Below, piece by piece: positions 12,631-44,163 of a stretch of DNA of 64,000 bases. Origin of the DNA: an uncultured Nitrospira sp. (GTDB lineage: Bacteria; Nitrospirota; Nitrospiria; Nitrospirales; Nitrospiraceae); assembly GCA_902500775.1 (NCBI GenBank), contig CABVRZ010000021.1, forward strand, positions 1 to 64,000, written 5' to 3'. Numbering within the stretch: position 1 is the stretch's first letter; the number at the start of each line of letters is the position of its first letter. Under the pieces are notes generated by a model. The model was not told the DNA's origin. It saw only the letters and a program-made list of their open reading frames with translations, and ran no database searches. The translations under genes and the position numbers were made by a program.

Positions 12631-12838
12631 TTCCAGAACTAGGTGAGATACTAGTCGAATAGTCAGAAGTAGGGCGGTAGGGTCAGCGATACAGCCAATT
12701 CGTCTTGAGCTGGATATAGAAGAGAAGAAAGGAGGTGACGATAAGATTACATCAAGAGATGGGTTATCTCTCGGCGCGGAAAGTGATTATAAGGTTGTTC
12801 GGGTTCTTGGTCCAGATTTATCAAAAAAGGAGACTTCC

Positions 12839-18212: not shown

Positions 18213-18650
18213 TCATCCCTCCTACCACAACCATGGTGGGCGACGAGGCTCAGCATAACGGAAACACCTTAGTGCACCCCTGGCACAAACCCTTGCGCAC
18301 TCCGCCACGATACCTAGCGCTTCGACTAGTTTTTTCTGGAGGATATCGTGACGAGATCCCAAGCGCAGTGCGTGCCCCCCGAGAACCTTTACTGTCGCGA
18401 TGTGAAGTCAGATGTTAGGACAAGAATGCGGCGATGGCTTGGTTGGCGAACAATCGCTCACCTGTGATGAGATACAGAACCCAATAGACATGAGACATGG
18501 GGAGGAAATGCACTCGTGAAATACTCATCCGCACTACCGCGCATCCAGTGGAGGAGTAACGCAGTGCCTCCATGTAGGAACCGGACAGAGACATTGGAAT
18601 TGCTTCTACGTGAGGAAAGCGTCATTAGGTGTATAGCTCAAGACTCCATC
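18213..18650. other. Intergenic, nothing recognised
   Basis: A 438-bp spacer between the zinc-ribbon gene and the left end of the IS481 relic. No supported gene or repeat was seen. Confidence 0.4.
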
Positions 18651-21824: not shown

Positions 21825-22221
21825 AATGACCTCCTCGTGTTTAAATAACGCTAAACAGAAGTGGAAACATTTCATGAATCCAGTATCTATACGAATAAGT
21901 CATAAATGAATGACGGAAGTAGTGGGCCTAGCTGAAGCCCTAGCTGAATACGCTTTAGCCCCCAGTTGTGGTGATACCGTATAGATCTGGTGGGTAGCTG
22001 AGGATGAGATGCACACTCGTCGATACAGATTGCACACCATCTCGTACGCGGTGACCTCACCCATCAACAACTAGGGCTTTTTCGAGTACTCGATAGGCTG
22101 GTAATCCGATAGGGTGCAACTACGATGATTGTGGCTCAGGACACGGCAATTGGAAAAATGGTCGTGGCAAGAGTGGGCCGAGTGTTTTCACTTTCAGTTA
22201 CCTACTACGAGGAGGTGCGCG
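21825..22221. promoter_or_regulatory. Divergent promoter region
   Basis: A 397-bp spacer between the leftward CsbD-like/DUF3015 genes and the rightward ElaB-like cluster, so at least two promoters should lie here. I could not identify a convincing promoter box by eye. No gene was recognised. Confidence 0.4.
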
Positions 22222-25800: not shown

Positions 25801-26121
25801 GATAGTTCCCTCCATGGATTTACAGGATTTGAATGTGTAATGCCTTTGAACGATGCCCGCATAGTCATCAGTTGAAACCTGGAATTAGCCCTAGTCTCTC
25901 GAACGCTCGTCCTTGTCTCACTTCGAGTCCCCAGTGAGGCATGCGTGGATTCACCTCAATCACATGTGGAGCGATCTCAACCCACCACGCTTATCTAGGG
26001 ATTCTACCAGTACCGATGGACACATCCTTAGTGACCTCACATGCATCGCAGCGGAAGTCCCTAGACTTCTCAACGACGAACTATGGAGCGTTTTGTATGA
26101 CCTTCTAGCGAAACCGGCGAT
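25801..26121. other. Intergenic spacer
   Basis: A 321-bp stretch upstream of the secreted-protein gene (minus) and of a small plus-strand ORF. No domain or strong repeat was seen. Confidence 0.35.
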
Positions 26122-28759: not shown

Positions 28760-29101
28760 TCATGCGCTGACGGCTTCCGGGAGCACAGAAGACCCAGCCG
28801 GTTGGTCATCCCCTAGAGTATTTTCCTCGAGCGCCTGTCTGCCAGTGACAGGATTTAAGCGATTGCGAAGGATCATCCGGTCGAGGATGTCCCCACATTG
28901 GATACATCGCAAAGCAGACACTTGTTGCTCGAACATCGAATCGGCTGCACTATCGAGACGTTCTATGACGAGCAATCCTCCGCAACGCATACAGTTTCGT
29001 GACCCCCGCAACATCAGAAGGAGCCGCGTCGCATGAAGATCATCATGATGTGGGAGTATCACTGCTGTCTCGGATTTCTTGATCTTGGACTTCGCACGCA
29101 T
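28760..29101 (-). CDS. Zinc-ribbon protein
   Basis: A 113-residue protein with two knuckles, CMRCGG (about 37-42) and CIQCGD (about 65-70), each followed by hydrophobic residues (CMRCGGLLVIERLD, LRCIQCGDILDRMIL). A basic N-terminal part (MRAKSKIKKSE) could contact nucleic acid. The start has GGAGGTGG upstream at good distance. The family is common but uncharacterised. It lies between two gene-poor stretches on the minus strand. Confidence 0.75.
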   Translation of the reverse strand: MRAKSKIKKSETAVILPHHDDLHATRLLLMLRGSRNCMRCGGLLVIERLDSAADSMFEQQVSALRCIQCGDILDRMILRNRLNPVTGRQALEENTLGDDQPAGSSVLPEAVSA

Positions 29102-29379
29102 GATTCCACCTCCGTACTTGTTGATAACAGATAGATGATGCTCTCCCGATCTGCCGTACGCGCCCTTGGCCGTTCAATAGAACAGGTGCCAGAAGGCGTA
29201 GTTGAAATGTAGCGTGAAGAGCGACCGCGGAGGACTAGCAAACCCTCCAGATCCCCACCTAGGTGTGGCTGGTTTCCAGGGTGTTATGACCTTGGACGAG
29301 AGGGCCAAAAGCTGATAGTCACGTGCCTGACGGCCTAGTGATTCAACTACATCTCAGCCCCTTGTATATCCGAGCAGGA

Positions 29380-30957
29380 TCAGGACGAGTTCCGGCGGGA
29401 GTAATGCCAGGCAAGCCCGAGCAAACCAACTCCGATGGCAATGGACGATAAGAGAAGGGCGGGATGGCTATACGATTGATACTGACTCAATGATGAACCA
29501 GGCAGCATCTTCCACAGCTGGTCTGGCCCCGCCGGACGCTCCGGATCAGCAAGAGCTGTGTCGAGGACCAGATGGTCAACTTCAGGAGCCACCTCGCACG
29601 AGCAGTCCCACAATCCCCGGCTTCCATTGTTAAGGTGATCAATCGTTTCAATGAAAGAGAATCCCCGTCGTTCAGCGTGCTCCACTTCAGATGGGTCCCG
29701 CCCCATATGCTCCCCCAGAAGGCGATATCTCAGGCTTCTCAGGCCGGCTTGTACCTGTTCGTTCCCGGTCCCGTCGATAATAAGATTGCACTCGGTGTCG
29801 AGCCCCATCGACCGATTGGAACAATTTGCCGATCCGATCGTCGCGACTGCATCGTCTACGATCAGAAGCTTGCTGTGGACACCGATAGACGTGTCGGAGG
29901 GCGCATTGGGGGTTGCGGGCCAATACACCCTCAGTCTGTCACGACCCGTGGCGTCTCGAAGTCGACGGATCAGTCGTGCGCGGAGGACATCCATCGTATG
30001 GTGTTCAAGCCAGCCGTCACTTTTCATCCTGGTCACCAGAACGATCTCTGGTCCCTGGGGATCAGTCAACCGCCGATGGAGCGCCTCACCGATCCGATGT
30101 GCTGTCAGATATTGCGACTCAATGAAGATATACCTTCGAGCAGTCGCAATCGCATCGCGATACAGCTGCTCGATTTCTCGAGCCTCCGGTTGATCTTCAA
30201 ATTGCGGCTGGGTTCGCGCAACGGCAACAGAGCAGCGTGTCAGATCAGCGGGAATACCGGCCGGCCACAGATCGGAAACCGGTCGGCGATGGGTTGGCAT
30301 GAGATGCTCACCCGTCGCACGATGCCAACCCAGCCGTGCCAGGTCACCCAATACCACAGCAACCTCTCCAGCGACGATAGTATGGACATCGTGAAAAGGA
30401 GCATAGCGACTCCCATCCGGGTCCACACGCCGAGGATCATGATGTTGATGTTCAGACGTATCCCAACGTCGCGTCGTCAGGTCGAGACCCCCAATAAATG
30501 CCACGGTGTCATCGATTACGACAAGTTTCTCGTGGTGACAGGCTCCGATGGGATGGCGATTATTCAGGTGAAAGTGGAGTCGAGGATGCGAGTTCCATCC
30601 GAATCGGACCGCTGGGAACCATTGTCGTTCCGTGGCATAGATGAAGGAATAATCCCAATTAAGAATGTACACATGCAGTGACTGTTTCCGATGCAACAAT
30701 CGCCGAAGGAATGGACCGAGTTCCGGGGGGAATCCATCAACATTGGGAACGTTGCGGAGAAGTCGAGTTCGCGGATTGATATCCCAGCTGAGAATCGTAA
30801 TCGAACGTTCGGCATTCAATGCAGCTCGGTAGAAAGCCTCAAAGTACGAGGCGCCATCGATCAAAAACGTCAGTCTCTCTGCTTCCGCCACACGCCAACA
30901 GTTACGGCCTGGCTGCAGACTGAGCGGTGGGCCGAGGGACGAGGAATGCCTGCTCAT
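29380..30957 (-). CDS. Phospholipase D / cardiolipin synthase-like enzyme
   Basis: A 525-residue PLD-superfamily protein that cleaves or transfers phosphodiester bonds of phospholipids. Two HKD motifs are present: HHEKLVVIDDTVAFIGGLD at about 140-158 and HSKLLIVDDAVATIGSANC at about 358-376, each with His, Lys and Asp at the expected spacing. The C-terminal end has a single membrane helix (LLLSSIAIGVGLLGLAWHYS), so it is probably anchored to the inner membrane. It may make cardiolipin or remodel lipids; the substrate is not determinable by eye. No signal peptide. The start lacks a good ribosome binding site. Confidence 0.9.
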   Translation of the reverse strand: MSRHSSSLGPPLSLQPGRNCWRVAEAERLTFLIDGASYFEAFYRAALNAERSITILSWDINPRTRLLRNVPNVDGFPPELGPFLRRLLHRKQSLHVYILNWDYSFIYATERQWFPAVRFGWNSHPRLHFHLNNRHPIGACHHEKLVVIDDTVAFIGGLDLTTRRWDTSEHQHHDPRRVDPDGSRYAPFHDVHTIVAGEVAVVLGDLARLGWHRATGEHLMPTHRRPVSDLWPAGIPADLTRCSVAVARTQPQFEDQPEAREIEQLYRDAIATARRYIFIESQYLTAHRIGEALHRRLTDPQGPEIVLVTRMKSDGWLEHHTMDVLRARLIRRLRDATGRDRLRVYWPATPNAPSDTSIGVHSKLLIVDDAVATIGSANCSNRSMGLDTECNLIIDGTGNEQVQAGLRSLRYRLLGEHMGRDPSEVEHAERRGFSFIETIDHLNNGSRGLWDCSCEVAPEVDHLVLDTALADPERPAGPDQLWKMLPGSSLSQYQSYSHPALLLSSIAIGVGLLGLAWHYSRRNSS

Positions 30958-31115
30958 GTGAAACTACGTCAATCGCCGAGATTCCAATTGGATAGGGTAG
31001 AGACACTCAGCTCTATGATTATCATACTGATCCCCTCGCCCTCTCGCAAATCGCCCCTGGACAACCCAGGGGTTCTGCTAGCTCTTGCCAGCATAGAAAC
31101 CCATATAATGGAGGC

Positions 31116-34100
31116 GTGGTACGAGGTCCAACCACGGGGGGCAATTATTGCCTCCTTGGAAATTCTAAGGAGACACCAAGGCTTACCCCTGCCCCGCCTC
31201 CTCTCATTGTCGTGCATCTGATTTCGATAGTCGGATGCGTCCTAACAATTGTGTGGGCTCTGTTAGCAATGGAGGCTCTCGCCTTTCAAGTTGGGGAAGA
31301 AGCTTCCCCAGTTCCTCGTTTCCTCGATATCAGTGCGATGAGCGCAGTGGGATTTTTCGTGGGGGGAACCAGCTTGCTCCTCTATACCTACCGGAAACCC
31401 ACCCCTTCGCGGAGAATGGCTGCTCAAATCCTGGGTGGATGTCTTGTGTTGTGGGGGGTGGGCTGCTTTGTCACAAATCAGTGGCCCCATGCTTCTCCGA
31501 GCATAACCCCGTCTGGCCCGATCACTTGTGCGATTCTGCTCAATCTTGGGCTAGCGATCCTCACCTTGCCCATTCGGACCTCTACGGGACAACGACCGTT
31601 TCAATATTTCGCGGGAGCAATCCTTCTCATGGGCGGAGTTGCGATCACTGGGTATCTTTACCGCGTTCCTCCGCTCTATGATTCCAGCACCTATGGGCCG
31701 ATCGATGCCCCGACCGCTGCCCTTTCCCTCCTACTAGGTCTTGTGCTCTTGTGCATCTATCCGACCGAAGGGCCCATGAGGATACTCCTCTCACCGAACA
31801 TCGGTGGAGCGATCTTGAGGCGCCTCCTCCCGTTCGCGATCGGGCTCCCGATTCTGGGGGGCTATCTCCGGATACTTGGACAGCGGCAGGGATGGTACAG
31901 CTTCGATTTTGGGGTGGCCGTAGCCATCGGCGTCGTCCTCGCTATTCTGTTGGCCTGTCTCTGGTACGTAGCCGGTTGGGCTGATCGAGTCGACCGTGAG
32001 CGCCACCGTATGAGCCTGGCGTATGAGGATCAGGAGACCAGGTTGAATCTCGCAGCGGCAGCCGCGCGAATCGGGTATTGGCGATGGACGGACGAGAATG
32101 ATCTCATCGAGTTCGACCAGGTCTCCGCCGAGTTATTGAATCTGTCCTCTGATTCACCCCTGCCGATCCCCTCGCTCCTTAATGCAATCGGAGCGGAGGA
32201 TCGCGATCTATTCCACCAGGTCGTAGAGAAGGCTCGCCGGAACTCGACGCCGTTCGAAATCGAATGTCAACCTGGCAACACAACCCACGCTAAATGGATC
32301 AGCCTGAGGGGCTTCCCATTGCCTCAGACTCAAGGATCCCCATACCGGTTTCATGGTGTTATTCTCGACATTACCGAGCGACGGACCGTTCAAGAGGCGT
32401 TGCGGGACAGTCAGCAGCGTTTGAACAGCATCGTCCAGTCGGCTATGGACGCCATCATTACAGTTGATCAGGAGCAGCGGATTCTCTTATTCAACAAGGC
32501 GGCTGAGCAGCTTTTTCAGTGCCCGGCGAAAGATGTCATCGGAACCCCGATCCATCGGTTTGTCCCAGATGGATTTCGGCAACAGCATAGCTCATACATG
32601 GACAGGTTCAAACGGAGCGGCGTGATTGCCAGAGCAATGGGACGTCCGGGATCGGTGAGGGCCCTGCGAGCTGATGGCCATGAGTTTCCGATTGAGGCGT
32701 CTATCTCGCAAGTAAACGTGAGCGGACAAAGTTTGTGCACAATAATTCTGCGAGATATCACGAAGCGCTTGCAGAGCGAAGACGCTATTCGTGAACGAGA
32801 GGCTCGTTTTCGAACCATGGCCGACAGTGCTCCGGTCATGATGTTCGTCATCGATTCAAAAGGCCTATGCACCTACCTTAATCGACAATGGTATGACTTC
32901 ACTGGGCAAACCGAGGAAACAGGGCTTCAGACCGGCTGGTTGAGCCGAATTCACGAGGACGACCGCAGCCGTCTGGTCGAATCGCTGAGGATCCCGAGCG
33001 GCCCCGTGGTCAGACGTCTGGAATGCCGAGTCCTCGGATATAGTGGATCATATCAATGGACGCTCTGCTCGATTCTCTCCATGGTCGATGAGCCGGGAAC
33101 CTTGTCTGGAAGTATCGGGTCGATTGTCGATATCACGGACCGCAAGATGGCTGAACAGACGCTCCAACGATGGGCGCAGGAACTCGAAAGTCAGGTCTCC
33201 GAGCGGACGGCGGCGTTAAGCCGTTCTCAAGAACGATTGCGAGCGCTCACCATCCAGCTCACGCGAACGGAGCATCAAGAACGTCGGCGTATTGCCGGTG
33301 AATTGCATGACTACCTCGCACAGCTACTGGTTGCCGCGCATCTTAAGTTAGCGCAGGATAGACGACCGCTCGTAACTGAGCAAGACCACAGGCTGGTTAA
33401 GGATCTTGAGCGGATCCTGGATGAAGCGCTTACCTACACACGCTCATTGGTCGCGAAAATGAGCCCTCCTGTCTTGTACCATCTCGGCCTCCCCGCCGCA
33501 CTGCAATGGCTGGCAGAGCAGATGGAAGAGCATCAACTGATCGTCGAGACGGCGTTTGACCTTCCATCCACTTTGCCGAAGTTGCCGGATGATGTCGCCC
33601 CAATCCTTTTTCAATCGGTGAGGGAACTGCTCTTCAATGTGGTGAAACATGCAGGCTCGTCGGCCGTCCAGATCACGCTGAAAATGGGTTCAGATCAGAC
33701 CCTCATGATCGTGGTTTCAGACCAGGGACTGGGCTTCGACGTCTCTCGACTGGAGCAGCCCTCTGCCGACACCACCTCGTTCGGACTCTTTAGCGTCAAG
33801 GAGCGTATGGAAGCACTCGGAGGCTCAATGCACGTGAGCAGCCGAGTCGGTCACGGCACCTCCGTCACGCTTCTCTGCCCGCTAGCGACGCAGCAGGGAA
33901 CCGGCTCCCTCGCACCGATGCCAGGCCCGCACCACGCCATACCTACACATCCGGAACATGGGGCTTCAACACCGTGGCGGATTCTGTTGGTCGACGATCA
34001 TGCCATGGTGCGACAAGGGATACGGGCATTACTCGAACGACAGCTCGACCTGGAAGTCGTGGGTGAGGCCTGGGACGGTCAGCACGCCTGCGACCTCACG

Positions 34101-34352
34101 GATGCCCTGCACCCAGACGTCATAGTGATGGATGCCAACATGCCTCGCCTTGATGGAATTGAGGCGACCCGCCGCATCAAACAACGATATCCACACACAG
34201 TGATCATCGGACTCTCCGTGCAAACTGCAGCCCAGGTGGCCACCAGCATGATACAGGCCGGCGCCAGCCGCTACCTGACGAAAGAATCGGCGGGCGAGCA
34301 GCTGTATGAAACCATCATCACTGCGATCTCTGAAAGAACTGATCAACGATAA
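31116..34352 (+). CDS. Membrane PAS hybrid histidine kinase
   Basis: A 1,078-residue sensor. Residues about 30-300 hold seven or eight membrane helices (VHLISIVGCVLTIVWALLAM onward), then three PAS domains (about 305-420, 430-545, 560-685), a HisKA_3 region with phosphoacceptor H731 (RRRIAGELHDYLAQLL), a HATPase domain (about 820-930; FNVVKHAG, GLGFDV, FGLFSVKERMEALGG) and a C-terminal receiver (about 953-1075; ILLVDDHAM, phosphoacceptor D1006). HisKA_3 kinases usually signal to NarL-type regulators. The receiver lacks an output domain. The annotated GTG start is uncertain, since a TATAAT box overlaps it at 31104-31109. Confidence 0.92.
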   Translation: MVRGPTTGGNYCLLGNSKETPRLTPAPPPLIVVHLISIVGCVLTIVWALLAMEALAFQVGEEASPVPRFLDISAMSAVGFFVGGTSLLLYTYRKPTPSRRMAAQILGGCLVLWGVGCFVTNQWPHASPSITPSGPITCAILLNLGLAILTLPIRTSTGQRPFQYFAGAILLMGGVAITGYLYRVPPLYDSSTYGPIDAPTAALSLLLGLVLLCIYPTEGPMRILLSPNIGGAILRRLLPFAIGLPILGGYLRILGQRQGWYSFDFGVAVAIGVVLAILLACLWYVAGWADRVDRERHRMSLAYEDQETRLNLAAAAARIGYWRWTDENDLIEFDQVSAELLNLSSDSPLPIPSLLNAIGAEDRDLFHQVVEKARRNSTPFEIECQPGNTTHAKWISLRGFPLPQTQGSPYRFHGVILDITERRTVQEALRDSQQRLNSIVQSAMDAIITVDQEQRILLFNKAAEQLFQCPAKDVIGTPIHRFVPDGFRQQHSSYMDRFKRSGVIARAMGRPGSVRALRADGHEFPIEASISQVNVSGQSLCTIILRDITKRLQSEDAIREREARFRTMADSAPVMMFVIDSKGLCTYLNRQWYDFTGQTEETGLQTGWLSRIHEDDRSRLVESLRIPSGPVVRRLECRVLGYSGSYQWTLCSILSMVDEPGTLSGSIGSIVDITDRKMAEQTLQRWAQELESQVSERTAALSRSQERLRALTIQLTRTEHQERRRIAGELHDYLAQLLVAAHLKLAQDRRPLVTEQDHRLVKDLERILDEALTYTRSLVAKMSPPVLYHLGLPAALQWLAEQMEEHQLIVETAFDLPSTLPKLPDDVAPILFQSVRELLFNVVKHAGSSAVQITLKMGSDQTLMIVVSDQGLGFDVSRLEQPSADTTSFGLFSVKERMEALGGSMHVSSRVGHGTSVTLLCPLATQQGTGSLAPMPGPHHAIPTHPEHGASTPWRILLVDDHAMVRQGIRALLERQLDLEVVGEAWDGQHACDLTDALHPDVIVMDANMPRLDGIEATRRIKQRYPHTVIIGLSVQTAAQVATSMIQAGASRYLTKESAGEQLYETIITAISERTDQR

Positions 34353-34452
34353 GAATTGTATCTGAGGACCAGGGGGGATTCATGTCACCTATCATGTCAG
34401 AGTCTCTCTCGCATCATGTCGCTCGATGACGGGTGGGCAGTTGAAGGAGGGG

Positions 34453-34483
34453 CCACCGGACTCAACACCTTTGAATCCGGTGG
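34453..34483. terminator. Hairpin between convergent genes
   Basis: CCACCGGA (34453-34460) pairs with TCCGGTGG (34476-34483), with a short loop. It lies 100 bases after the kinase stop and about 80 bases from the 3' end of the convergent DUF1328 gene, so it could act for either strand. No T run follows. Confidence 0.45.
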
Positions 34484-34561
34484 ACGGGGCGGGTTTGCAA
34501 CAGCCTTAGACCGTCGAAACATGAGGGTATTCGTGCGGCCAACCAACGACCGCTGATCCAG

Positions 34562-34726
34562 TCAGGCTGTCGGTTTGCGTCCAGTCACGAAACCGACGAG
34601 CGCCAGTAGAATAAAAATGACGAACAATGCGTAGGCGATACTCGTGGCTGTACCAGCTACTCCGGTTAAGCCTAGTACTCCCGCAATGATGGCAACGATG
34701 AGAAATGTAACTGCCCAGCTCAGCAT
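34562..34726 (-). CDS. DUF1328 (YtjA-type) membrane protein
   Basis: A 54-residue protein with two close membrane helices ([20 protein letters not shown] and [20 protein letters not shown]) and a short basic end (GRKPTA). This matches DUF1328/YtjA, small inner-membrane proteins of unknown role, often in stress regulons. The ATG at 34726 is chosen because AGGAGG lies 5-6 bases upstream; the frame extends 19 codons further without a ribosome binding site. Confidence 0.85.
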
Positions 34727-34797
34727 AACGCACCTCCTAACTTCATGGTTCACCTGCTCACTGTGATATCGGCCCGTACACACACTCTCCTACCCTC

Positions 34798-35229
34798 CTA
34801 TTTACAAGAGAGTCGGAGCGATTCGATGTCGTTTTTCATCTGTGCGTCTGACAAACTCTCCAGACTCTGGTTTGCCGCCAGAATGAGCGTGCGGCCCCCG
34901 AATTCCTGATCGGCATACAGCACCACATAGGCCTCTGGACCGACGATGATGCTCTCAATATCATTGTCCCAGTTTTGATCGTTGAGACCCTTGAGTGTCG
35001 TAAGCTCGTGAGGCCCCACCAGCAACAGCCGAGGCCCATTCTTATCGAACTCAGCATTCATATAGATTTCCGCCCAGCATTTATTGTCATGTTTGAGTGG
35101 ATTGTTATCCTGCTGTTGAGACACCCCCGCAGCCAGGGATTCCGTTCCCATACTATTCAGAGCCACGATGGCCAGGACCGCGATGATACTTGCGCCATAT
35201 ACCAGCATCACTATACGCATCACGCTCAT
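34798..35229 (-). CDS. Secreted beta/gamma-crystallin domain protein
   Basis: A 143-residue protein with an N-terminal signal segment (RIVMLVYGASIIAVLAIVAL). The mature part has two Greek-key motifs: CWAEIYMNAEFDKNGPRLLL ... NDIESI, and AYVVLYADQEFGGRTLILAA ... NDIESL. NDxxS loops at matching positions fit the N/D-N/D-x-x-S/T-S calcium site of beta/gamma-crystallins, with the final Ser replaced by Ile or Leu, so calcium binding is plausible but perhaps weaker. GGAGGAGG upstream supports the start. It lies in a minus-strand run with a beta-barrel protein and a DUF1328 gene. Confidence 0.8.
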   Translation of the reverse strand: MSVMRIVMLVYGASIIAVLAIVALNSMGTESLAAGVSQQQDNNPLKHDNKCWAEIYMNAEFDKNGPRLLLVGPHELTTLKGLNDQNWDNDIESIIVGPEAYVVLYADQEFGGRTLILAANQSLESLSDAQMKNDIESLRLSCK

Positions 35230-35310
35230 CCCCTCCTCCCTACCAGGAGTCCCCCTAAGTCCCGCCAGACAATCGGTGCCATCGTGGTGACCGCCTCAGG
35301 AGGCCCGAAT

Positions 35311-35901
35311 CTAGAAGTGAAAATTTAGACCCACCGTAACCATGTGGCCATTGTCATTAAACTTCTTGTCGTCAAGGGACACGTTCTTCGACTCGATTTT
35401 TTCCAGCCAGATATGTCGGTACGAAGCGTCGGCAGAAATATGATTACTAATAAATACTTGCACCCCTCCGCCAACATGTCCGCCGAATCGCTGCTGCGTA
35501 TCATCAAAGCCGCCGGGACCCGTGACCGTCGTAAAATACCAACCACCTCCGCCGAGTATGAATGGCGAGATACGTTTGAGCCCTAACGGATAAATCATCA
35601 ACGACCCCTGCACGGGGTATGAATGGACCCGAGTATCGCCAAAATCGTTCCGCCGATAATCGACTGAGCCTTCCACAGCGAGATACCGTATCGGGTGAAC
35701 ACGAACTTGTGCACCACCAAACCATCGATCATCACCTTCCTTCGGGTCAAAATAGGTCGCACGGCCACCGATGGAGAATAGGCCGACATCGACATCGCTG
35801 AAGATGTTTTCGGCCCCCGAGTTACCCACTGATGTGATGGAGAGTGATCCAGCTGCAACGAATGCCAGGGCATACGCCATTACCCGATGTCGAATAGTCA
35901 T
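35311..35901 (-). CDS. Outer-membrane beta-barrel protein (OMP_b-brl type)
   Basis: A 196-residue exported protein. The signal peptide (YALAFVAAGSLSITSVGNSG, cleavage near SGA-EN) leads to eight or so amphipathic strands (VDVGLFSIGGRATYFD, WFGGAQVRVHPIRYLAVEGS, RFGGHVGGGVQVFISNHISA, HMVTVGLNFHF), ending in the terminal Phe typical of outer-membrane proteins. It fits the OmpA/OmpW-like porin superfamily. The ATG at 35901 is preferred, with GGAGG 8 bases upstream. Probably an outer-membrane structural or adhesion-type protein; the specific role is unknown. Confidence 0.85.
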   Translation of the reverse strand: MTIRHRVMAYALAFVAAGSLSITSVGNSGAENIFSDVDVGLFSIGGRATYFDPKEGDDRWFGGAQVRVHPIRYLAVEGSVDYRRNDFGDTRVHSYPVQGSLMIYPLGLKRISPFILGGGGWYFTTVTGPGGFDDTQQRFGGHVGGGVQVFISNHISADASYRHIWLEKIESKNVSLDDKKFNDNGHMVTVGLNFHF

Positions 35902-36281
35902 ACAACGATCCTCCTCAAGTCCTAGTAGAATGGCCAACTCTTCAGAACAGCATTTTTATCGTCTGATTAATATATTCATACGATACATATATCCGTGCCG
36001 TGCATCTTCCGTTCCTGGCAGATGCCCTAGTCTGCTTGGCCCGTTCCCCTAGCTTCTGACTGTCGCCCTGAGGGGTTGCTGGAGGTGATGCTGGCTTCCT
36101 GATGATCGTGACGGAGCGGTTGACCTTCACAGAAGATGAAGCGTAGGCTACCGCGGTAGTTTGCCTTCCGGAGCGGATCTTCCTCACTGAGGACATCCCA
36201 CCGAGAAGGAGCAAGCTCCTTGGCCTGTGAACTGGGAGCCAGATCAACGACAGGCTTTCACACAGTCTGATGTCATGAAGG
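35902..36281. other. Divergent spacer upstream of the split kinase
   Basis: A 380-bp region upstream of both the barrel gene (minus) and the kinase remnant (plus). It should hold both promoters. A minus-strand frame at 35942-36247 has no ribosome binding site or domain and I do not annotate it. Confidence 0.35.
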
Positions 36282-37204
36282 TTGAAATGGACGGAGCGGA
36301 AACTGGCTTTTACCGGCCTGGGGCTCGGTTTGTTGGTGCTAATTGGCCTTGTTACCTATGCGGTCAATCGTCGGTCTGAACAGGCGAGCCAGCGCGAAGC
36401 ATTTCGAGAAATCCGAACCGTATTGGAATACATTCTCGCGCGACACTCGTATCTCTCTGATGCCGAGAGTAGACAACGGGGGGATTTGCTGACCCATGAT
36501 CCAACCTATCTCGCCCCGTACCATGTCGCCACCGAAAAGATTCCAGCTGTCTTGACACACCTGGAACAGGAGACTAAGCAGGACAGCGGTCAGCGGAAAC
36601 ACATTGAGGCGCTTCGGCCCTTGACCGAGAGGAAGCTGGTGGAACTCCGCACATCGCTGGAGATGACTACGACCAGTCCTACAGATGCTATCGAATTCGG
36701 CAGAAGCAAAACCGGCAGATTGCTGATGGAGGACCTTAGATGTTAACGAGAACTGGGGACCATCCGTGAACGAGAGTACGAGACCCCCCAGGCAGTTGAT
36801 CGACATGAGCGGCAGGCTGCCGAGGCAGGCCTATCATACGATCATCGGTGCGGCCATCACGACGTTGATTCTGCTTGGGCTCGGGACCTCCCGGTGCTTC
36901 AAGATTCTGGGTCCACAGAACAGGCTGAGCGCCTGACCGTGCAGGCCAAGCTGTTGAATCTCGCTCCGATCATGACGCGAGACATCAATGGACGCATTCT
37001 GTCGTGGAGTAAAGGGTACGAACGTCTGTACGGCCGGACCGAGGACGATGCCGTCGGAAAATCCGTCTCGCTCTGCTCCAAACATAGTTCAGCATCCCGC
37101 TGGAGAAAGTCCAACGCAGGTTCTCGAATGAGGGGAATTGGTTAGGAGAACTGACGCATACGCGACGCGATGGGACCACCATTCTTGTCTCAGCCAATTG
37201 GACG
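36282..37204 (+). pseudogene. Sensor kinase 5' part (CHASE3), broken
   Basis: The first 154 codons read MKWTERKLAFTGLGLGLLVL (membrane helix) and a CHASE3-like helical sensor domain (REIRTVLEYILARHSYLSDA, HLEQETKQDSGQRKHIEALR), then TAA at 36744-36746. The second membrane helix appears in another frame (YHTIIGAAITTLILLGLG, about 36830-36885). The first PAS domain begins in the original frame (LTVQAKLLNLAPIMTRDING, ILSWSKGYERLYGR) and shifts again before 37205. At least one stop and two or three frame changes separate the sensor half from the kinase half at 37205-39919. Confidence 0.65.
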
Positions 37205-39919
37205 TTGCTCAAAGGAAGGGGGCAGAGTTCCCCGATGGCCGTTGAAGTGAACACCGACATCTCCAAGATCAAGGCCGCACAGGCCGCCCAAGCCGAGAGT
37301 GAGGCTCGGTTCCGACTCCTAGCCGAGAACATGTCCCAGTTCGCGTGGATCACTGATGAGAAAGGTTGGGTTCACTGGTACAACCAACGCTGGTTCGACT
37401 ACACCGGAACCACCCTCTCAGAAATGGAAGGTTGGGGTTGGAAGAAAGTCCACCATCCGGATCATGTGGACCGGGTCGTCGAGAAGATCGCTCGATGTTT
37501 CGAGATCGGAGAGGTCTGGGAAGATACGTTCCCGTTACGAGGGCGGGACAGTCAGTACCGCTGGTTCCTGTCCCGTGCCACTCCGATTCGTGATGCAGAG
37601 GGACGGATTCTCCAGTGGTTCGGTACCCATACCGACATCACGGACCGATATCAGGCCGAGCAAGCCCTCATGGAGCAGACGATCTTTACCAAATCCGTGT
37701 TGAATTCGCTTGAGGCCACGATCGCCGTCATCGACAAACAAGGCGTGATCCTCCAGGTCAATGAAGCCTGGGCCACATTTGCCCGAAAGAATAGCCCACA
37801 GGGGTGGGCACATACGGCCGGTGTCGGCGCCAATTACCTTGAGGTAAGTAATCGAGCCTCCTCTTCGGACCCTATCGCCCGTGAGGCGAAGGACGGTATC
37901 AAGGCCGTGCTGGATGGATCCCAGGTCACATATGAATTGGAATACCCCTGCCATTCCCCGTCACAGCGCCGTTGGTTTCGGATGACGGTGTCTCCACTGA
38001 GAACGGCGAGTGGGGGGGCAGTCATCGCACATGTCGACATCACGGCTCACAAGACAGCTGCAGAGACCGAGGCGTTTCTTGCTGCCATCGTGACAGGCAG
38101 CGCGGACGCGATCATCACCAAATCAGTCAAGGGGGTTATTCTTACCTGGAATCAAAGAGCCGAGAGGTTGTTTGGCTACGCCAGTGGCGAGATTGTCGGT
38201 CGACAAGTTGAGGTGCTGGTTCCCGAAGAGTTGCGAGAGGAAGAGCATAAGCTCCGCCACCGCACGCTCAGCGGTACCATCGTCGAACAGTTTGAAACTC
38301 AGCGGTTGCACAAGACCGGTCGCCTGATCGACGTCTCGGTCAACATGTCGCCGATCAAGGACGAAACCGGAGCGATCGTGGCCACGGCACAGACGATGCG
38401 GGATATTACGCTTCGGAAGCAGGCGGAGCTGGCGCTCCAAAAGACCGAGCGTTTCAATCGCGCGCTGTTCCAGAGCAGCCCTGATTGTGTAAAAGTTCTC
38501 GGTCCGAGCGGAGAGCTGCTTGATATGAATACCCCGGGTATGTGCGCGATGGAGATAGAGGAGCTGGAACGGCTCAAAGGGCAACATTGGGAACAGTTCT
38601 GGCCGGCTGAAGCCCGAGCGACAATCCAATCAACGCTCAACCAATGTCGGTCAGGAGAGCCTGCCAGTTTTCGCGGTTTCTGCCCAACCGCCCAAGGAAG
38701 TCCTCGATGGTGGGATGTGACCGCGACCCTCGTACAGGACGGAAGCGGCCGGATACTCGTCGTCTCGCGCGATGTCACTCATCAACGACGGGCAGAGGAG
38801 ACGCTTCGAGCGAGCGAAGATCGGTTCCGTACCCTGACGACAAACATTCCACAACTCGTGTGGTCCTGTCGCCCGGACGGCACCTGTGAATATATGAGCG
38901 AACAATGGCTCTCGTTCACTGGTACTCGTCTCGATGAGAATCTCGGACATGGGTGGCTTTCCCTGATTCACCCAGAGGATGCTCCCATGGTCAATCAAGT
39001 CTGGAACGAGGCCGTGGCATCCAGAAATCAGTATGCTGCTGAATATCGGTTGCGGGCTGCCGACGGGAGCTATCATTGGCATCTGGCTCGTGGAACTCCC
39101 CAGCAAGACGAACAAGGAAACATCATACGATGGTTCGGGACCACCACCAATATTTCTGATCAAAAGGAAACTGAAGCGGCGCTTGAGCAATTGAACACCC
39201 TCCTGGAATCCAAGAGCGAGGCACTCGCCGCGGTCAACAAGGAGCTGGAAGCCTTCTCGTATAGCGTGTCCCATGATCTACGTGCGCCGCTTCGAACGAT
39301 GACAGGCTTTGCCCAAGCCTTGCTGGAGGATTATGGGGAGAAATTAGAACCAGAGGCTGCGCGGTATCTAAGGATCATTTCCAATGGCGCGACCCAAATG
39401 GGTCGCCTGGTCGATGATCTCCTCTCATTTTCTCGATTATCCCGGCAACCATTGACTATGGGCACAATCTCGATCGGGGGCTTGGTTAAGGAGGTCCGCG
39501 AAGACCTCGCCGCGGATCAAGTTGACCGCACAATTGAATGGGATGTGGCCGATCTGCCGGTTTGTCAAGGCGATCGCACCACCATCAAACTGGTCCTTGC
39601 CAACCTGCTCGGCAATGCGCTTAAATACTCGCGAACGCGAGAGATTGCCAAAATCCAAATCGGATGGCAGGCCGACGATCAGCGTCCTGGGCATTGCCAA
39701 ATCTTTTGCAAAGACAACGGCGTCGGGTTCGACATGCAATATGCCGACAAGTTGTATGCCGTGTTTCAACGGCTGCATCGCGCGGAAGAGTTCGAAGGAA
39801 CGGGCGTGGGACTCGCCATCGTGGAGCGCATCGTCCATCGCCATGGAGGGCGAGTCTGGGCTGATGCGCGGCCCAACGAGGGTGCGACCTTCTGGTTTAC
39901 CCTGGAGCGATCATCATGA
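37205..39919 (+). CDS. PAS histidine kinase (catalytic part of split gene)
   Basis: A 904-residue frame with five PAS domains (about 35-150, 160-285, 290-410, 420-535, 545-665), a HisKA region with phosphoacceptor H690 (SYSVSHDLRAPLRTMTGFAQ) and a HATPase domain (about 795-900; NLLGNALKYSR, DNGVGFDMQYADKLYAVFQR, GTGVGLAIVERIVHRHGG). This bacteriophytochrome-like HisKA class is often paired with Rcp1-type receivers, and one follows with a 4-bp overlap. It probably once continued from the CHASE3 part upstream; as it stands it has no membrane helix. The start is the first ATG and is uncertain. Confidence 0.8.
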   Translation: MLKGRGQSSPMAVEVNTDISKIKAAQAAQAESEARFRLLAENMSQFAWITDEKGWVHWYNQRWFDYTGTTLSEMEGWGWKKVHHPDHVDRVVEKIARCFEIGEVWEDTFPLRGRDSQYRWFLSRATPIRDAEGRILQWFGTHTDITDRYQAEQALMEQTIFTKSVLNSLEATIAVIDKQGVILQVNEAWATFARKNSPQGWAHTAGVGANYLEVSNRASSSDPIAREAKDGIKAVLDGSQVTYELEYPCHSPSQRRWFRMTVSPLRTASGGAVIAHVDITAHKTAAETEAFLAAIVTGSADAIITKSVKGVILTWNQRAERLFGYASGEIVGRQVEVLVPEELREEEHKLRHRTLSGTIVEQFETQRLHKTGRLIDVSVNMSPIKDETGAIVATAQTMRDITLRKQAELALQKTERFNRALFQSSPDCVKVLGPSGELLDMNTPGMCAMEIEELERLKGQHWEQFWPAEARATIQSTLNQCRSGEPASFRGFCPTAQGSPRWWDVTATLVQDGSGRILVVSRDVTHQRRAEETLRASEDRFRTLTTNIPQLVWSCRPDGTCEYMSEQWLSFTGTRLDENLGHGWLSLIHPEDAPMVNQVWNEAVASRNQYAAEYRLRAADGSYHWHLARGTPQQDEQGNIIRWFGTTTNISDQKETEAALEQLNTLLESKSEALAAVNKELEAFSYSVSHDLRAPLRTMTGFAQALLEDYGEKLEPEAARYLRIISNGATQMGRLVDDLLSFSRLSRQPLTMGTISIGGLVKEVREDLAADQVDRTIEWDVADLPVCQGDRTTIKLVLANLLGNALKYSRTREIAKIQIGWQADDQRPGHCQIFCKDNGVGFDMQYADKLYAVFQRLHRAEEFEGTGVGLAIVERIVHRHGGRVWADARPNEGATFWFTLERSS

Positions 39920-40365
39920 CGACCTCACCTCACGTCGATATTCTCCTGGTTGAAGATAATCCTGATGATGTCGAGCTCACGCTTCGCTCCCTCAGAAAGA
40001 ACAACGTCACCAACCGAGTCGCCGTGGTACAGGATGGAGCCGAGGCCCTGGAGTATTTGTTTGCTACAGGCCGCTATGCTGATCGCTCGATCTCCCGTCT
40101 GCCAAAGGTCGTGTTCCTTGATCTGAAGCTACCGTTGGTCAGCGGGATCGAAGTACTCCGCCAATGTAAGGAAGACGAACGGATGAGTCAGCTTCCGATC
40201 GTCGTCCTCACCTCCTCCCGTGAAGAACCGGACGTTCACACCTGCTATGGGCTGGGGGTGAACAGTTACATCGTCAAGCCCGTCGATTTTCAGCAATTCA
40301 CTGAAGCCGTGCGCCAAGTTGGGCTCTACTGGCTCTTCTTGAATGAGGCTCCGTCAGCCTTGTAA
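39916..40365 (+). CDS. Rcp1-type single-domain response regulator
   Basis: A 149-residue receiver without output domain. It has the acidic pair in DILLVEDNPDDVE, the long alpha4-beta5 insertion typical of Rcp1 (ATGRYADRSISRLPKVVFLD), phosphoacceptor D69, T92 (VVLTSSRE) and K113 (SYIVKPVDF). The ATG overlaps the stop of the upstream kinase (ATGA), a GGAG lies 8 bases upstream, and the next gene begins 14 bases after the stop, so the three are very likely one operon. It should accept phosphate from the kinase at 37205. Confidence 0.92.
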   Translation: MTTSPHVDILLVEDNPDDVELTLRSLRKNNVTNRVAVVQDGAEALEYLFATGRYADRSISRLPKVVFLDLKLPLVSGIEVLRQCKEDERMSQLPIVVLTSSREEPDVHTCYGLGVNSYIVKPVDFQQFTEAVRQVGLYWLFLNEAPSAL

Positions 40366-40379
40366 GTGAGAATGCTCGC

Positions 40380-42104
40380 ATGCCAGCTCTGGGGCAGACT
40401 GATACGTCACAATCCATCCCTCTTCGTCTCCTGATCGTCGAGGACCGCGAAACCGATACGGAGTTGATCGCCCGCGAACTCAAGAAACAGGGGTTCACTC
40501 CTTCCTGGGTGCGGGTCGACACGGAAGAGGAATTCCTTCGCCAGATTCAGGCACCATTTGATTTGATCACGGCCGATGCCGTTATGCCTCAGTTCAGTGC
40601 CCGGCGCGTGCTTGCGCTACTCAAGGAACACAAAATCGAGCTGCCATGCATCATTGTTTCCGGCTCGATCGGAGAGGAAGAGGCTGTCGCGCTTATTCGT
40701 GAGGGTGCGGTGGACTACATCCTAAAGGATCGCTTCGGCCGCCTAGGGCAAGCTGTCCGCCACGTGCTTGACCAGCACCTCTTGCGCGCCGAGCACCGTC
40801 AGGCCCACGTAGCCCTTGTAAAGTTGAATGCAGAACTGGAGCGACGGATCGCTGAGCGAACCGCCAAGCTTGAAGAAGTCAACCGACAATTGGCTCAGGA
40901 GCTGGCGGAGCGGAAGCAAATCGAGCTCCGTCTCCGACAACAGGAGGCCACGCTCGAACGTCGAGTGGCCGCACGCACGACGCAGCTGGAGCGGTCGCAC
41001 ACGCGATTGCGCCGCCTGGTTACGGAACTCACATTGGTGGAACAGCGAGAACGAAAGCAACTGGCTTCCGAATTACATGACTACCTTGCTCAGCTCCTCG
41101 TCGTCGGCAAGCTGAAGATCGATCAGCTCTGCCGAAATCCCTCGGTGGCCCCCGCCGCTCGGATGCTCGAAGAAGCGGGATCCGCGCTTGATCAGGCCCT
41201 GATCTATAGCCGTACGCTCGTCGCTCAACTCAGCCCAACCGTCCTCTTTACTCAAGGGCTGGTGGCTGCCCTTCATGGGTTGCCAGAATATTTTTCCCGG
41301 TCCGGGCTCCGGGTCCAGGTGCAGTCGACCGTCCTATCCGTGGAACTTCCCGAAGATCGATCCGTGTTGTTATTCCAGTCAGTGCGAGAACTGCTATTTA
41401 ATGTGCTGAAGCATGCTGGAACTGGAGAGGCGACGGTCGCCCTCGACCGCCCGAACGATCAGACCGTACGAATCACCGTGGCAGATCACGGACTAGGTTT
41501 CGACATACAGACCTCAGCGGAGACATCCAAAGGGTTTGGGCTCTTTAGTATTCGTGAACGCATCGAAGTTCTGGCTGGCACGTTTTCAGTGCAATCTTCT
41601 CCTGATACAGGCACTCAGGTTGAACTGACCGTACCGCTCTCCGAATCCGTCGCATCCCCTCTCCTGCAGAGCAGGCCGGCGATTGAGAGGAGGACGAGCT
41701 CGCCAACGGAGTCGAAAGCCTTGCACGTACTGATTGTCGACGACCATGAATTAATCCGAAATGAACTCCGTCAGCTTTTGACCGCCACGAAGAATGTGGT
41801 GATCGTTGGCGAGGCCTCAAATGGTCGACAGGGAGTGGCACTCGCTGCCGATTTATGTCCGGACCTAGTGGTCATGGACATCAATATGCCGGAACTCGAC
41901 GGGATCGAGGCGACGAAACGGATCCTCGCTCGGAACCCACGAATAAAAGTGGTCGGTATTACTGTCAATACCGACCCCGATATTCACAAGCAGATGGTAG
42001 CTGCAGGAGCAGTTGCATCGCTCGAAAAAACATCTCTTTCCTCCGAGCTTCAACCGATCATCATGCAGATACTGACCCAGCTTGAAGAGTTGGAACTATC
42101 GTGA
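40380..42104 (+). CDS. REC-HisKA_3-HATPase-REC hybrid kinase
   Basis: A 574-residue soluble protein. An N-terminal receiver (about 15-130, phosphoacceptor D66 in LITADAVMP) leads through a coiled coil (about 140-215, LNAELERRIAERTAKLEEVN) to a HisKA_3 region with H233 (ERKQLASELHDYLAQLLVVG), a HATPase domain (about 325-415, GLGFDI, GFGLFSIRERIEVLAG) and a NarL-like C-terminal receiver (about 448-570, D500 in VVMDINMP) without HTH. It probably takes phosphate from the Rcp1 or kinase encoded upstream and passes it on. Third gene of the operon. Confidence 0.92.
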   Translation: MPALGQTDTSQSIPLRLLIVEDRETDTELIARELKKQGFTPSWVRVDTEEEFLRQIQAPFDLITADAVMPQFSARRVLALLKEHKIELPCIIVSGSIGEEEAVALIREGAVDYILKDRFGRLGQAVRHVLDQHLLRAEHRQAHVALVKLNAELERRIAERTAKLEEVNRQLAQELAERKQIELRLRQQEATLERRVAARTTQLERSHTRLRRLVTELTLVEQRERKQLASELHDYLAQLLVVGKLKIDQLCRNPSVAPAARMLEEAGSALDQALIYSRTLVAQLSPTVLFTQGLVAALHGLPEYFSRSGLRVQVQSTVLSVELPEDRSVLLFQSVRELLFNVLKHAGTGEATVALDRPNDQTVRITVADHGLGFDIQTSAETSKGFGLFSIRERIEVLAGTFSVQSSPDTGTQVELTVPLSESVASPLLQSRPAIERRTSSPTESKALHVLIVDDHELIRNELRQLLTATKNVVIVGEASNGRQGVALAADLCPDLVVMDINMPELDGIEATKRILARNPRIKVVGITVNTDPDIHKQMVAAGAVASLEKTSLSSELQPIIMQILTQLEELELS

Positions 42105-42169
42105 GGGGTCCCCGCCTCTGTTTTTCCCTTACCGGGCAGCCGCGAGCATCCTTCATCGACCATCCGTAC

Positions 42170-42253
42170 TTATCGGAGAAAACCAAAGAGATACAAAAAG
42201 ACGACGATGACTCCTGGAACTCCGAGCATCCATAGTAGCAATCCTTTTGCCAT
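42170..42253 (-). CDS. 27-residue membrane peptide
   Basis: A very small ORF, MAKGLLLWMLGVPGVIVV and then FLYLFGFLR. One hydrophobic helix of about 22 residues with basic residues at both ends. GGAAGGAGAACGCC before the ATG is one of the best ribosome binding sites in the window. It is convergent with the hybrid-kinase operon, ending 65 bases from its stop. Similar very short hydrophobic proteins occur widely but are uncharacterised. Confidence 0.6.
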   Translation of the reverse strand: MAKGLLLWMLGVPGVIVVFLYLFGFLR

Positions 42254-42334
42254 GGCGTTCTCCTTCCTGGTCAGACTTAGAATCTGAGTTTGCGACTATC
42301 ACACCGTGACATGCTCTCCACCTAGAGAGAGTAA

Positions 42335-42373
42335 GAGAGGAACCGGGCGGTGTGACCCCGGCCGGTTCCTCTC
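42335..42373 (-). terminator. Hairpin after the CsbD gene
   Basis: GAGAGGAACCGG pairs perfectly with CCGGTTCCTCTC (12 bp) around a GC-rich loop that can pair further. It lies 60 bases after the 3' end of the CsbD gene at 42434 (minus), which it probably terminates. On that strand it is followed by TTACTCTC, not a clean T run. Confidence 0.55.
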
Positions 42374-42433
42374 ATCAAAGAAGCATGTATGTACGCCATG
42401 CTTCTCCGAACCGAACGCCTCGGACACTCTGTA

Positions 42434-42802
42434 TTACTTGGCTCGGTTGCGTCCCTGTGCGTCATGCCGCTCAAACCATTCATCAATCCACTGCTTCACT
42501 TCTTTGCGACGGTCTCCGTATCGTTCCTGAATCTTGCCATTCAATTTATCGTTATGGCCTTCGATGTACAGGAGATCGTCATCGGTAATGTCCGCCCATT
42601 TCTTTTTCAGCTCTCCCTTAAATTGTTTCCAGTTCCCCTTGAGTTGATCAGAATTGACCACGGGATGCACATACCTATTAGGGTGATCGACAGCCGTGGG
42701 CGAAATCCCGAGCGGTGTCGTCATCGCAAACATCTCAGGCGTCGTTGTGATGCAACCTAGAATAAACAGTCCCACGAACCATTGCTGGAGATCACGCTTC
42801 AT
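42434..42802 (-). CDS. CsbD-family protein with export segment
   Basis: A 122-residue protein. The N-terminal hydrophobic segment (WFVGLFILGCITTTPEMFAM) looks like a signal or membrane anchor, unusual for CsbD, which is normally cytoplasmic. The C-terminal CsbD domain reads NSDQLKGNWKQFKGELKKKW, ITDDDLLYIEGHNDKLNGKI, QERYGDRRKEVKQWIDEWFE. AGGGAAG 4 bases before the ATG at 42802 favours this start. CsbD proteins are abundant stress proteins of unknown mechanism. It is downstream of a second, cytoplasmic CsbD gene. Confidence 0.8.
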   Translation of the reverse strand: MKRDLQQWFVGLFILGCITTTPEMFAMTTPLGISPTAVDHPNRYVHPVVNSDQLKGNWKQFKGELKKKWADITDDDLLYIEGHNDKLNGKIQERYGDRRKEVKQWIDEWFERHDAQGRNRAK

Positions 42803-42904
42803 ATGCTTCCCTGCGTGTGTGAACAACAATGTATGACGGCCATCCAGATGATCCCGAATTCTTTCCAGAACCGCATGCAACGGCTAACAGCGTCTCCCCT
42901 TACC

Positions 42905-42944
42905 ACCCAATCCAGCGCGGCGAAGTGGCCGCGCTGGATTGGGT
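42905..42944 (-). terminator. Perfect 17-bp stem hairpin between CsbD genes
   Basis: ACCCAATCCAGCGCGGC pairs base for base with GCCGCGCTGGATTGGGT around a 6-base loop (GAAGTG). It begins 10 bases after the stop of the upstream CsbD gene on the minus strand and about 100 bases before the next CsbD start, so it probably ends or stabilises the first transcript. There is no T run. Confidence 0.6.
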
Positions 42945-42953
42945 ACACGCGAT

Positions 42954-43178
42954 TTACCGTCTTGGGGCTCCAGCCTCACCAGGCTGCCGCTCATACCAAT
43001 CATTGGCCCATTTAAGCACGTCTTCCTTTTTGTCTCCGTATCGCTCCTGAACACGGCCAACAAACTTGTCGTAGTTGCCTTCGGCTTCAATGAGATCATC
43101 GTCAGTCAGCTTCCCCCACTGACGCTTGGCTTCTCCCTTGAACTGTTGCCACTTCCCTTTGAATTGTTCGGCGTTCAT
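42954..43178 (-). CDS. CsbD-family stress protein
   Basis: A 74-residue canonical CsbD protein: MNAEQFKGKWQQFKGEAKRQ, LTDDDLIEAEGNYDKFVGRV, QERYGDKKEDVLKWANDWYE. It is soluble and predicted cytoplasmic. AAGGAGG 6 bases before the ATG. CsbD is a stress-inducible family (sigma-B controlled in Bacillus) whose molecular role is not known. It is followed by a perfect hairpin and by a second CsbD with an export segment. Confidence 0.92.
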   Translation of the reverse strand: MNAEQFKGKWQQFKGEAKRQWGKLTDDDLIEAEGNYDKFVGRVQERYGDKKEDVLKWANDWYERQPGEAGAPRR

Positions 43179-44163
43179 AAGAACCTCCTTGTGATGGTTG
43201 AGTTACTGACTGTGTTTCTTCCTGTGCTTCCCTGCCTGCTTGGAGAAACAAAGTATCAGCATTGCTGATACCGGTTATAACGTGAGAATCGTCCCAACGG
43301 GACTGGAGAAGTCCCTAGTTTTGAGCCCTGCTGGGCCTCAATGATCATGTTCTTCCGTTGCATTTCGTTGGCCCGTTGTGTTCGCTTCACAGATTCTGAC
43401 TTGAGGGGTGGTACTGCTGCGTAGATCTCGGGAGCCGGGCTTCGATGGCTGTCATCGTTAGCAGCCTCGCCAACTTTCCTGTATCATCTAGTGCCGACAG
43501 ATGCCTATGCCCTGCCCTTTGCAGACGTTGATGCACATTCCACGACGGATCCTGTAGAGAAACTGGCTCAGGAGTCGTATCCATGGTATCGACAGCGGTT
43601 CGCCGTTCCGCAGGGCTCGAACAGTTTCCCTATGCCAGCGTCACAGAGAGCCAAGCCCCCACTCCCTGATAACGTCGTCCATCGTATACCACCATTACCT
43701 CGCTCACGATTTTCTTGAATATATAGCGTCCCTCCTCCAGCGCGGCTCGTGAGCTCACCACTCAAACATTCCAGGTCGTCAGATCCTTGACAGTCAGGCG
43801 CTCACAATCGCTCGGATGTGTTCTCACCGATACTTGGCTATGGTTCTGCGTCTTTGACTGCGAGACATCTGTGGCTATGCAGCTGCGTTCACCTCCGGGT
43901 TCATTAATTCGGCACCGCGCTACACAGCGCATATCACTTGGATGTTTTGGCCAACCGGATAGACGCCGAGTTTCAAGAGCGACTGGTTCAACACAAGCGA
44001 CAAGGACTTCTCCCCAACACACGACGCATTTCAGGCCCACCTGAGATTCGGCACTGGGACATTCCCCATGTCCGTATTTTTTCGCTCCCCCCTATGGTCC
44101 TGGATAACGTCATTATTGGTATATGTCCGATTCGGTGCACCACCACATTTCCGAAGGAGATTT
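43179..44163. other. Gene-poor stretch
   Basis: About 1 kb without a gene I can support. Frames at 43491-43718 (plus) and 43387-43584 (minus) have no ribosome binding site or domain. Probably degraded DNA upstream of the truncated secreted-protein gene. Confidence 0.4.

Follow-up and report, generated by a model that had tools for sequence, protein, structure and literature searches.

The window analysed here, a 64,000-nucleotide stretch of DNA from an uncultured Nitrospira, encodes on its minus strand a 143-residue protein (34798–35229) that its open reading frame, PDB matches and profile matches identify as a protein of β/γ-crystallin type, predicted to be exported. The ATG is preceded by a strong Shine–Dalgarno sequence, GGAGGAGGGG. 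It is the middle member of three consecutive minus-strand genes, the first encoding an outer-membrane β-barrel protein (35311–35901, 196 residues from an ATG start; PF13505, E = 3.8e-13) and the last a small DUF1328 membrane protein (34562–34726, 54 residues; PF07043, E = 1.1e-12; Shine–Dalgarno AGGAGG), both domain matches bearing out the neighbours named in a preliminary description of this locus. With gaps of 81 bp and 71 bp, the three genes would form one transcript. The region 3′ of the DUF1328 gene (34355–34561) folds no better than its shuffles (z = −0.69), and an Rfam scan of 29000–43500 returned nothing at gathering score. Histidine kinases on the plus strand flank the set: a PAS hybrid kinase with HisKA_3 and receiver domains (31116–34352) is convergent and a CHASE3-PAS kinase (36282–39919) divergent, and another hybrid kinase, which matches HisKA_3 and twice a receiver domain, lies at 40380–42104. 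The CHASE3-PAS kinase passes from frame 3 to frame 2 near 37058, either a sequencing error or decay; its counterpart in the related genome G037 is a single ORF of 1,121 residues.

The crystallin protein opens with a putative export segment (residues ~1–34; 35128–35229, minus strand), recognized by eye, with a likely cleavage site near SLA-A and without a lipobox; hydrophobic N-terminal segments are likewise seen by eye in the aligned family (18 rows). The rest of the protein is one domain. Cys51 and Cys142 (codons 35077–35079 and 34804–34806, minus strand), each aligned to a Cys of PDB 3enu, are invariant in 18/18 family rows, and the invariant columns of these 18 sequences also include W87, S93 and S137. 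In a survey of 33 sequences that demanded Glu-Ser in the second clamp loop (so that its own loop-2 count is given by construction and is not evidence), the domains are uniformly acidic (pI 4.05–4.92) and 31/33 hold exactly two Cys. We thus have a protein that is predicted to be exported and whose mature form a Cys51–Cys142 disulphide would close. The gene is under purifying selection, with dN/dS of 0.043–0.091 in four pairs and dS saturated in the other two. One relative of the same clamp type, at locus L083, has a Thr-rich C-terminal tail beyond the last Cys.

A single-sequence search matches residues 48–141 to PDB 3ent/3enu (E about 1e-5; 1.1e-5), which we take to be nitrollin from Nitrosospira multiformis (PDB title ‘Putative uncharacterized protein’). 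A profile of 18 Nitrospirales sequences, run against the PDB with hmmsearch, recovers 3enu over the whole domain (E = 1.8e-12), as well as spherulin 3a (E = 1.3e-6) and protein S (E = 6.6e-6). AlphaFold2, supplied with only 3 sequences, gave no usable model (mean pLDDT 41.6 for the mature region and 43.2 for the trimmed domain); the fold assignment therefore rests on profile homology, which argues strongly for two crystallin Greek keys, and the earlier statement that two such keys are clear stands on these matches. That the ORF is real and belongs to the β/γ-crystallin family we regard as virtually certain. Like nitrollin, the window protein has a single domain of two Greek keys by homology, with a C-W start, a C-terminal Cys, a W-x-N-x-x-x-S first loop and a VGP turn, but it has Glu where the alignment places Arg at position 5 of the nitrollin clamps. 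Spherulin 3a (1hdf) and protein S (1prr, 1nps) share the superfamily and align over the second Greek key, but their own clamps are of the canonical S-S kind; we know of no gene set resembling barrel–crystallin–DUF1328 for either. Key 2 carries the Y-x4-Y/F-x-G signature of Greek keys (Y105, F110-G-G112), and key 1 (Y56, F61-D-K) is without the signature Gly, taking the signature as worded in PMC3551895.

Within Pfam, the best match of the window protein is Inhibitor_I36, marginally above threshold (21.5 bits against a cut-off of 21.1), and Crystall scores 17.7 bits, under its cut-off of 25; at E up to 0.1, 16/18 family members match Inhibitor_I36 and 14/18 match a Crystall or Crystall_3 profile. 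The protein could accordingly be read as an I36-family peptidase inhibitor of the periplasm, of the Streptomyces metalloproteinase inhibitor type, a reading that gains something from the NfeD-family neighbour found in f3-family genomes (L026, L027, L030 and L032), with a weak protease-domain match in L027. The I36 family has a fold that itself resembles that of crystallins, so the match can reflect fold kinship. The Streptomyces inhibitor has four Cys in two disulphides, against the two Cys of the window protein and of almost all its relatives surveyed; the scanned window neighbours include no protease family. We consider an inhibitor very improbable.

HMMER aligns N-N-T-I-S-S of protein S and E-N-K-V-R-S of 3enu with D-N-D-I-E-S of the window protein, and because these alignments to solved crystallins set the register, the S/T of position 5 is replaced by Glu and the Ser of position 6 is kept in both keys. 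The loops are D88-N-D-I-E92-S93 in key 1 (34951–34968, minus strand) and K132-N-D-I-E136-S137 in key 2 (34819–34836, minus strand), the latter with Lys at position 1. Neither key thus presents the canonical N/D-N/D-x-x-S/T-S. The preliminary description had picked out NDIESI and NDIESL loops, residues that are indeed present, but its alignment of NDIESI on the canonical motif was wrong, and its claim that the second Ser of the site is replaced was out of register by one: it is position 5 that has become Glu, and the last Ser persists.

Among intact Nitrospirales sequences, the window’s included, position 5 is Glu in 27/33 and Gln in 6/33 for loop 1, and Glu in 33/33 for loop 2, Ser following at position 6; this Ser is found in 18/18 rows of the profile alignment too. 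Loop 2 opens with K, S, A or G rather than N/D in the 25 sequences from a pattern search that required Ser6; of the fetched loci, 12 escaped that pattern, namely 8 intact ones, read by eye, 3 decayed ones and L087, which has no crystallin match. An acidic X1 residue mostly adjoins the Glu of loop 2. Other crystallins of the phylum provide a comparison, PF00030 matching 4/295 genomes. The clamps read in G012 and G016 are of the NDRVSS, NDSISS and NDQITS kind, position 5 being S or T, and those read in G082 have S in some and R, K or G in others. No Glu occupies position 5 among the clamps read in these three genomes, a reading that took those frames in which one or more clamps are canonical, plus a second G082 frame; the fourth genome, G147, falls below the cut-off and the frames read there are other proteins. 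G016 carries both a canonical and a Glu-type crystallin, and its contig C97 (L091) encodes a long protein with eight canonical clamps of the NDSISS/NDQITS kind.

What such a clamp does with metal can be argued in two directions. In known crystallins, the position-5 residue of the partner motif is itself a calcium ligand, and we suggest that the Glu-bearing clamps hold a divalent cation by carboxylate instead of hydroxyl, to which we give slightly less than an even chance. A clamp can nevertheless change without keeping its metal, since 3enu aligns with Arg at both fifth positions and Arg, not an acidic residue, is the position-5 substitution discussed in print (PMC8639718). Glu5 may then have abolished metal binding, leaving a metal-free, disulphide-stabilized domain, perhaps a swapped dimer resembling nitrollin, in the same envelope-stress role. 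For this speaks 3enu, the nearest solved relative, with its two Arg residues. So does an extension N-terminal to Cys51 that is conserved between the window protein and its two nearest relatives, as would be expected of a swapped strand, and nitrollin is reportedly domain-swapped. The Gln of loop 1 in six sequences points the same way, as does the stabilizing effect of Ser-to-Arg at position 5 in microbial crystallins, described for M-crystallin, where X1 is a main-chain calcium ligand, in PMC8639718 too. The replacement here is acidic rather than basic, however, invariant in loop 2 and mostly accompanied by acidic X1, in domains that are themselves acidic; loss of metal is a possibility to which we give roughly one chance in three.

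The family is patchily distributed. The window protein has matches in 16/98 nearer relatives, its own genome included, and the family profile in 28/295 genomes of the phylum; by our own count, 21 of those 28 hold a full-length domain, 4 a partial or decayed one (G007, G296, G019 and G317) and 3 a remote match (G241, G256 and G269). Bacterial β/γ-crystallins had been called uncommon, which holds in the sense of patchiness within Nitrospirota, to which our survey was confined. Named records from Nitrospira sp. KAN-bin2 and ACE_NIT9 show 84% and 79% identity, respectively. Plasmids gave no tblastn match to the window domain or to a distant relative, and viral contigs gave 16 pattern matches with no relative among them. 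A partial literature search found nothing on a crystallin in Nitrospira, one paper that came up reading ‘crystalline’ (PMC13109103).

The gene order between the kinases, with a receiver and a hybrid kinase, recurs in G037, G004, G051 and G227, making five genomes with the window; on its DUF1328 flank, G051 has a shorter kinase ORF, of 543 residues and from the same family. The five crystallins form one clade in the tree (100/100), so this gene set samples a single clade. Together with homology and the invariant Cys pair, this synteny sustains the earlier proposal of a secreted crystallin in an envelope gene set, the signal segment being assigned by eye. Other relatives have different neighbours: NfeD/FloA with a glycogen debrancher in some, a GFO/IDH oxidoreductase in others. 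Three genomes (G007, G296 and G019) have an intact DUF1328 gene adjoining decayed crystallin remnants, and the crystallin gene is dispensable, since it has decayed in these genomes and DUF1328 is kept; the remnants lie at 7808–7996 of L039, 6985–7179 of L085 and 7753–7951 of L086.

Of 36 crystallin loci, three of them decayed, 10 have DUF1328 no more than 2 kb away, where 0.07 would be expected, and 14 have CsbD within 10 kb, where 0.42 would be; these counts take related genomes as independent. The only DUF1328 gene of the window genome and both of its CsbD matches are all within the window. The crystallin might serve the outer-membrane barrel encoded beside it, as partner or plug, and not be a free protectant, and the barrel and crystallin genes are indeed adjacent in 5/5 genomes of the clade; yet a barrel relative accompanies the crystallin at only 4/36 fetched loci, with one ~3.6 kb away at L078 and none found in the rest, which makes this role improbable. 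In Salmonella, CsbD (YjbJ) and DUF1328 (YtjA) are among the small proteins under sigma-S control (PMC5437024).

Upstream of the barrel gene, the five genomes have diverged save for one clear block, CTAGGG-N16-CTAGGG-N6-CYAGG. In the window this candidate operator reads CTAGGG-N16-CTAGGG-N6-CCAGG (36014–36052, minus strand), 112 bp 5′ of the barrel gene, with a −10-like box at ~35986–35991 (minus strand) at a fixed distance from it. Allowing 3 mismatches, the window has 5 matches, against an average of 0.20 over 100 shuffles, none of which reached 5, and the 4.53-Mb genome has 10; all four genomic matches with up to 2 mismatches fall within the window, in one 24-kb stretch at 12.6–36.0 kb. Besides the barrel site, these are 12617–12655 (plus strand, 2 mismatches), 5′ of a BON-domain gene (12839–13162); 18279–18317 (minus strand, 2 mismatches), 5′ of a small gene judged zinc-ribbon-like by eye and a gene for a secreted protein of 128 residues; and 21927–21965 (minus strand, 1 mismatch), 5′ of a 94-residue gene judged LEA-like by eye and a DUF3015 gene. 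The fifth window match, with 3 mismatches, lies at 25878–25916 (minus strand), 5′ of a gene for a secreted protein of 168 residues. Weaker element-like sites with scores of 10–16 occur at 22049 (plus), 43302 (minus), 44561 (plus) and 54869 (minus), that at 43302 upstream of the second CsbD match and that at 44561 upstream of a DUF748 gene.

In the relatives, sites with up to 2 mismatches also gather near the unit (4/6 in G037, 3/4 in G004, 2/3 in G051 and 3/3 in G227), and the same types of gene recur 3′ of the element: the barrel unit in 5 genomes, the LEA-like (by eye) and DUF3015-like genes in 4, the zinc-ribbon-like gene in 3 (followed in two by a secreted-protein gene), a BON-type lipoprotein in 2 and CsbD in G030. 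Several matches elsewhere have no or unrelated genes downstream, L109, L111, L114, L116, L126 and L128 among them. The dinucleotide TA, which formed no part of the search pattern, stands at offset 62 in 21/36 listed sites and at offsets 61–63 in 29/36, against a mean of 2.05 at other offsets. A site model was built from 22 of these 36 sites, picked for stress-type or regulator genes downstream, with 14 dropped; TA at offset 62 is found in 15/22 and 6/14, respectively. A model trained on six sites, taken from G030, G279 and G086, gives five window matches scoring >10, at four places, versus 2 in 259 kb of other loci, although it is only partly independent, all sites having been found with the pattern derived from the site at 36014. 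Match counts do not exceed those of a backwards-pattern control (10 versus 35 in the own genome, 39 versus 72 in relatives), a control that is harsh if CTAG is rare.

Upstream of the other crystallin loci, the element was found within 600 bp at 0/31, 3 of them decayed (best score 2.5); on this count we no longer regard it as an ancestral feature of the crystallin, and among the crystallin loci examined it occurs only before units of the window type. A sigma-70 scan of 34300–36400 gave 2 sites against 1.8 in shuffles, with none on the minus strand, and a partial literature search found nothing evidently relevant to the CTAGGG element, whose letters occur once in each of two papers, or to a Nitrospira stress regulon. 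A shared element at a fixed distance from a promoter-like box thus precedes several conserved genes, and the crystallin unit probably belongs to a stress regulon. The clustering of CTAGGG-type elements between 12617 and 36052, before small envelope- and stress-type genes, possibly marks a Nitrospira stress regulon not previously described.

A candidate regulator is found in the same region: two NarL/LuxR-type response regulators, each with Response_reg and GerE domains, form a divergent pair (9602–10270, plus strand; 10427–11137, minus strand). NarL-type regulators usually pair with HisKA_3 kinases, and the island has two of these kinases. A similar divergent pair also adjoins the element sites of G037, G004, G051, G227, G199, G279 and G030, eight genomes with the window, and G055 and G022 have neither sites nor pair. 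Nearby sites were already known when the G199, G279, G030 and G086 regions were selected, so the fair part of the comparison is the eight regions chosen by regulator alone (L139–L146, 122 kb), where 9 sites score at least 8, in 4/8 regions, compared with 4 such sites in 259 kb of other loci. The NarL-type pair is a plausible regulator of the CTAGGG element on this evidence.

The element might instead belong to an ECF sigma factor or to a different activator. Eight further genomes have a regulator at 59–64% identity with only 0–2 full sites, and G296, G335 and G175 carry a single site apiece, their regulator relative reaching just 50–53%; in G086 the divergent pair, at 2.68 Mb, is ~0.45 Mb from three clustered sites near 2.23 Mb, which adjoin two other, tandem regulators (52% and 50% identity). 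However, one of these tandem regulators has a site 57 bp 5′ of its frame, and two weak sites of the nine lie directly before response-regulator genes in G001 and G012 (scores 8.3 and 8.6). Given also the eight genomes with a pair beside their sites and the −10-like box at its fixed offset, we judge control by another factor rather unlikely.

The best reading of the crystallin, to which we give even chances, makes it a member of a two-component regulon that acts in envelope stress and perhaps binds metal through its Glu-modified clamp as a protein of that regulon. The exported, probably disulphide-closed, acidic single-domain protein would be a small stabilizing or metal-loaded component of the envelope, made together with the outer-membrane barrel and the DUF1328 protein as one unit of an envelope or general-stress programme. 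A sensor kinase of the island (31116–34352 or 40380–42104) would phosphorylate a NarL/LuxR-type regulator (10427–11137 and/or 9602–10270), which would bind the CTAGGG repeats upstream of the promoter and activate the barrel unit, presumably co-transcribed, and the other small stress-type genes, so that the crystallin unit would be induced by stress. The protein would then pass to the periplasm or cell surface and be closed by Cys51–Cys142; its two Greek keys would pair and, at the slightly less than even chance given above, their Glu clamps would hold a divalent cation, stiffening it as calcium does other microbial crystallins. By analogy, protein S and spherulin 3a may serve as the model of a stress-linked crystallin, being stress-linked and calcium-bound (PMC3551895, PMC10574481). 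The sigma-S and sigma-B general stress regulons resemble this island in that small CsbD and DUF1328 families are co-located here; they differ in using an alternative sigma factor, where we propose a two-component element bearing CTAGGG repeats. The fullest version, in which a dedicated two-component envelope-stress regulon of Nitrospirales, with CTAGGG-N16-CTAGGG-N6-CYAGG promoters and a divergent NarL-type pair, deploys a Glu-clamp crystallin whose acid-ligated metal site has a selectivity unlike that of known β/γ-crystallins, we think unlikely.

The crystallin itself is a new variant within a known superfamily, and the promoter-marked island, a by-product, is of greater use. The functions of bacterial β/γ-crystallins are mostly obscure, and here is a conserved subfamily with Glu fixed at position 5, the charge reverse of the Arg in 3enu and lens γ-crystallins, which provides a natural test of how this position sets metal binding and stability. 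Nitrospira nitrifiers are hard to manipulate; the promoter-marked stress island places the crystallin in a physiological context that can be tested, and it provides a way into the control of stress responses in these bacteria.
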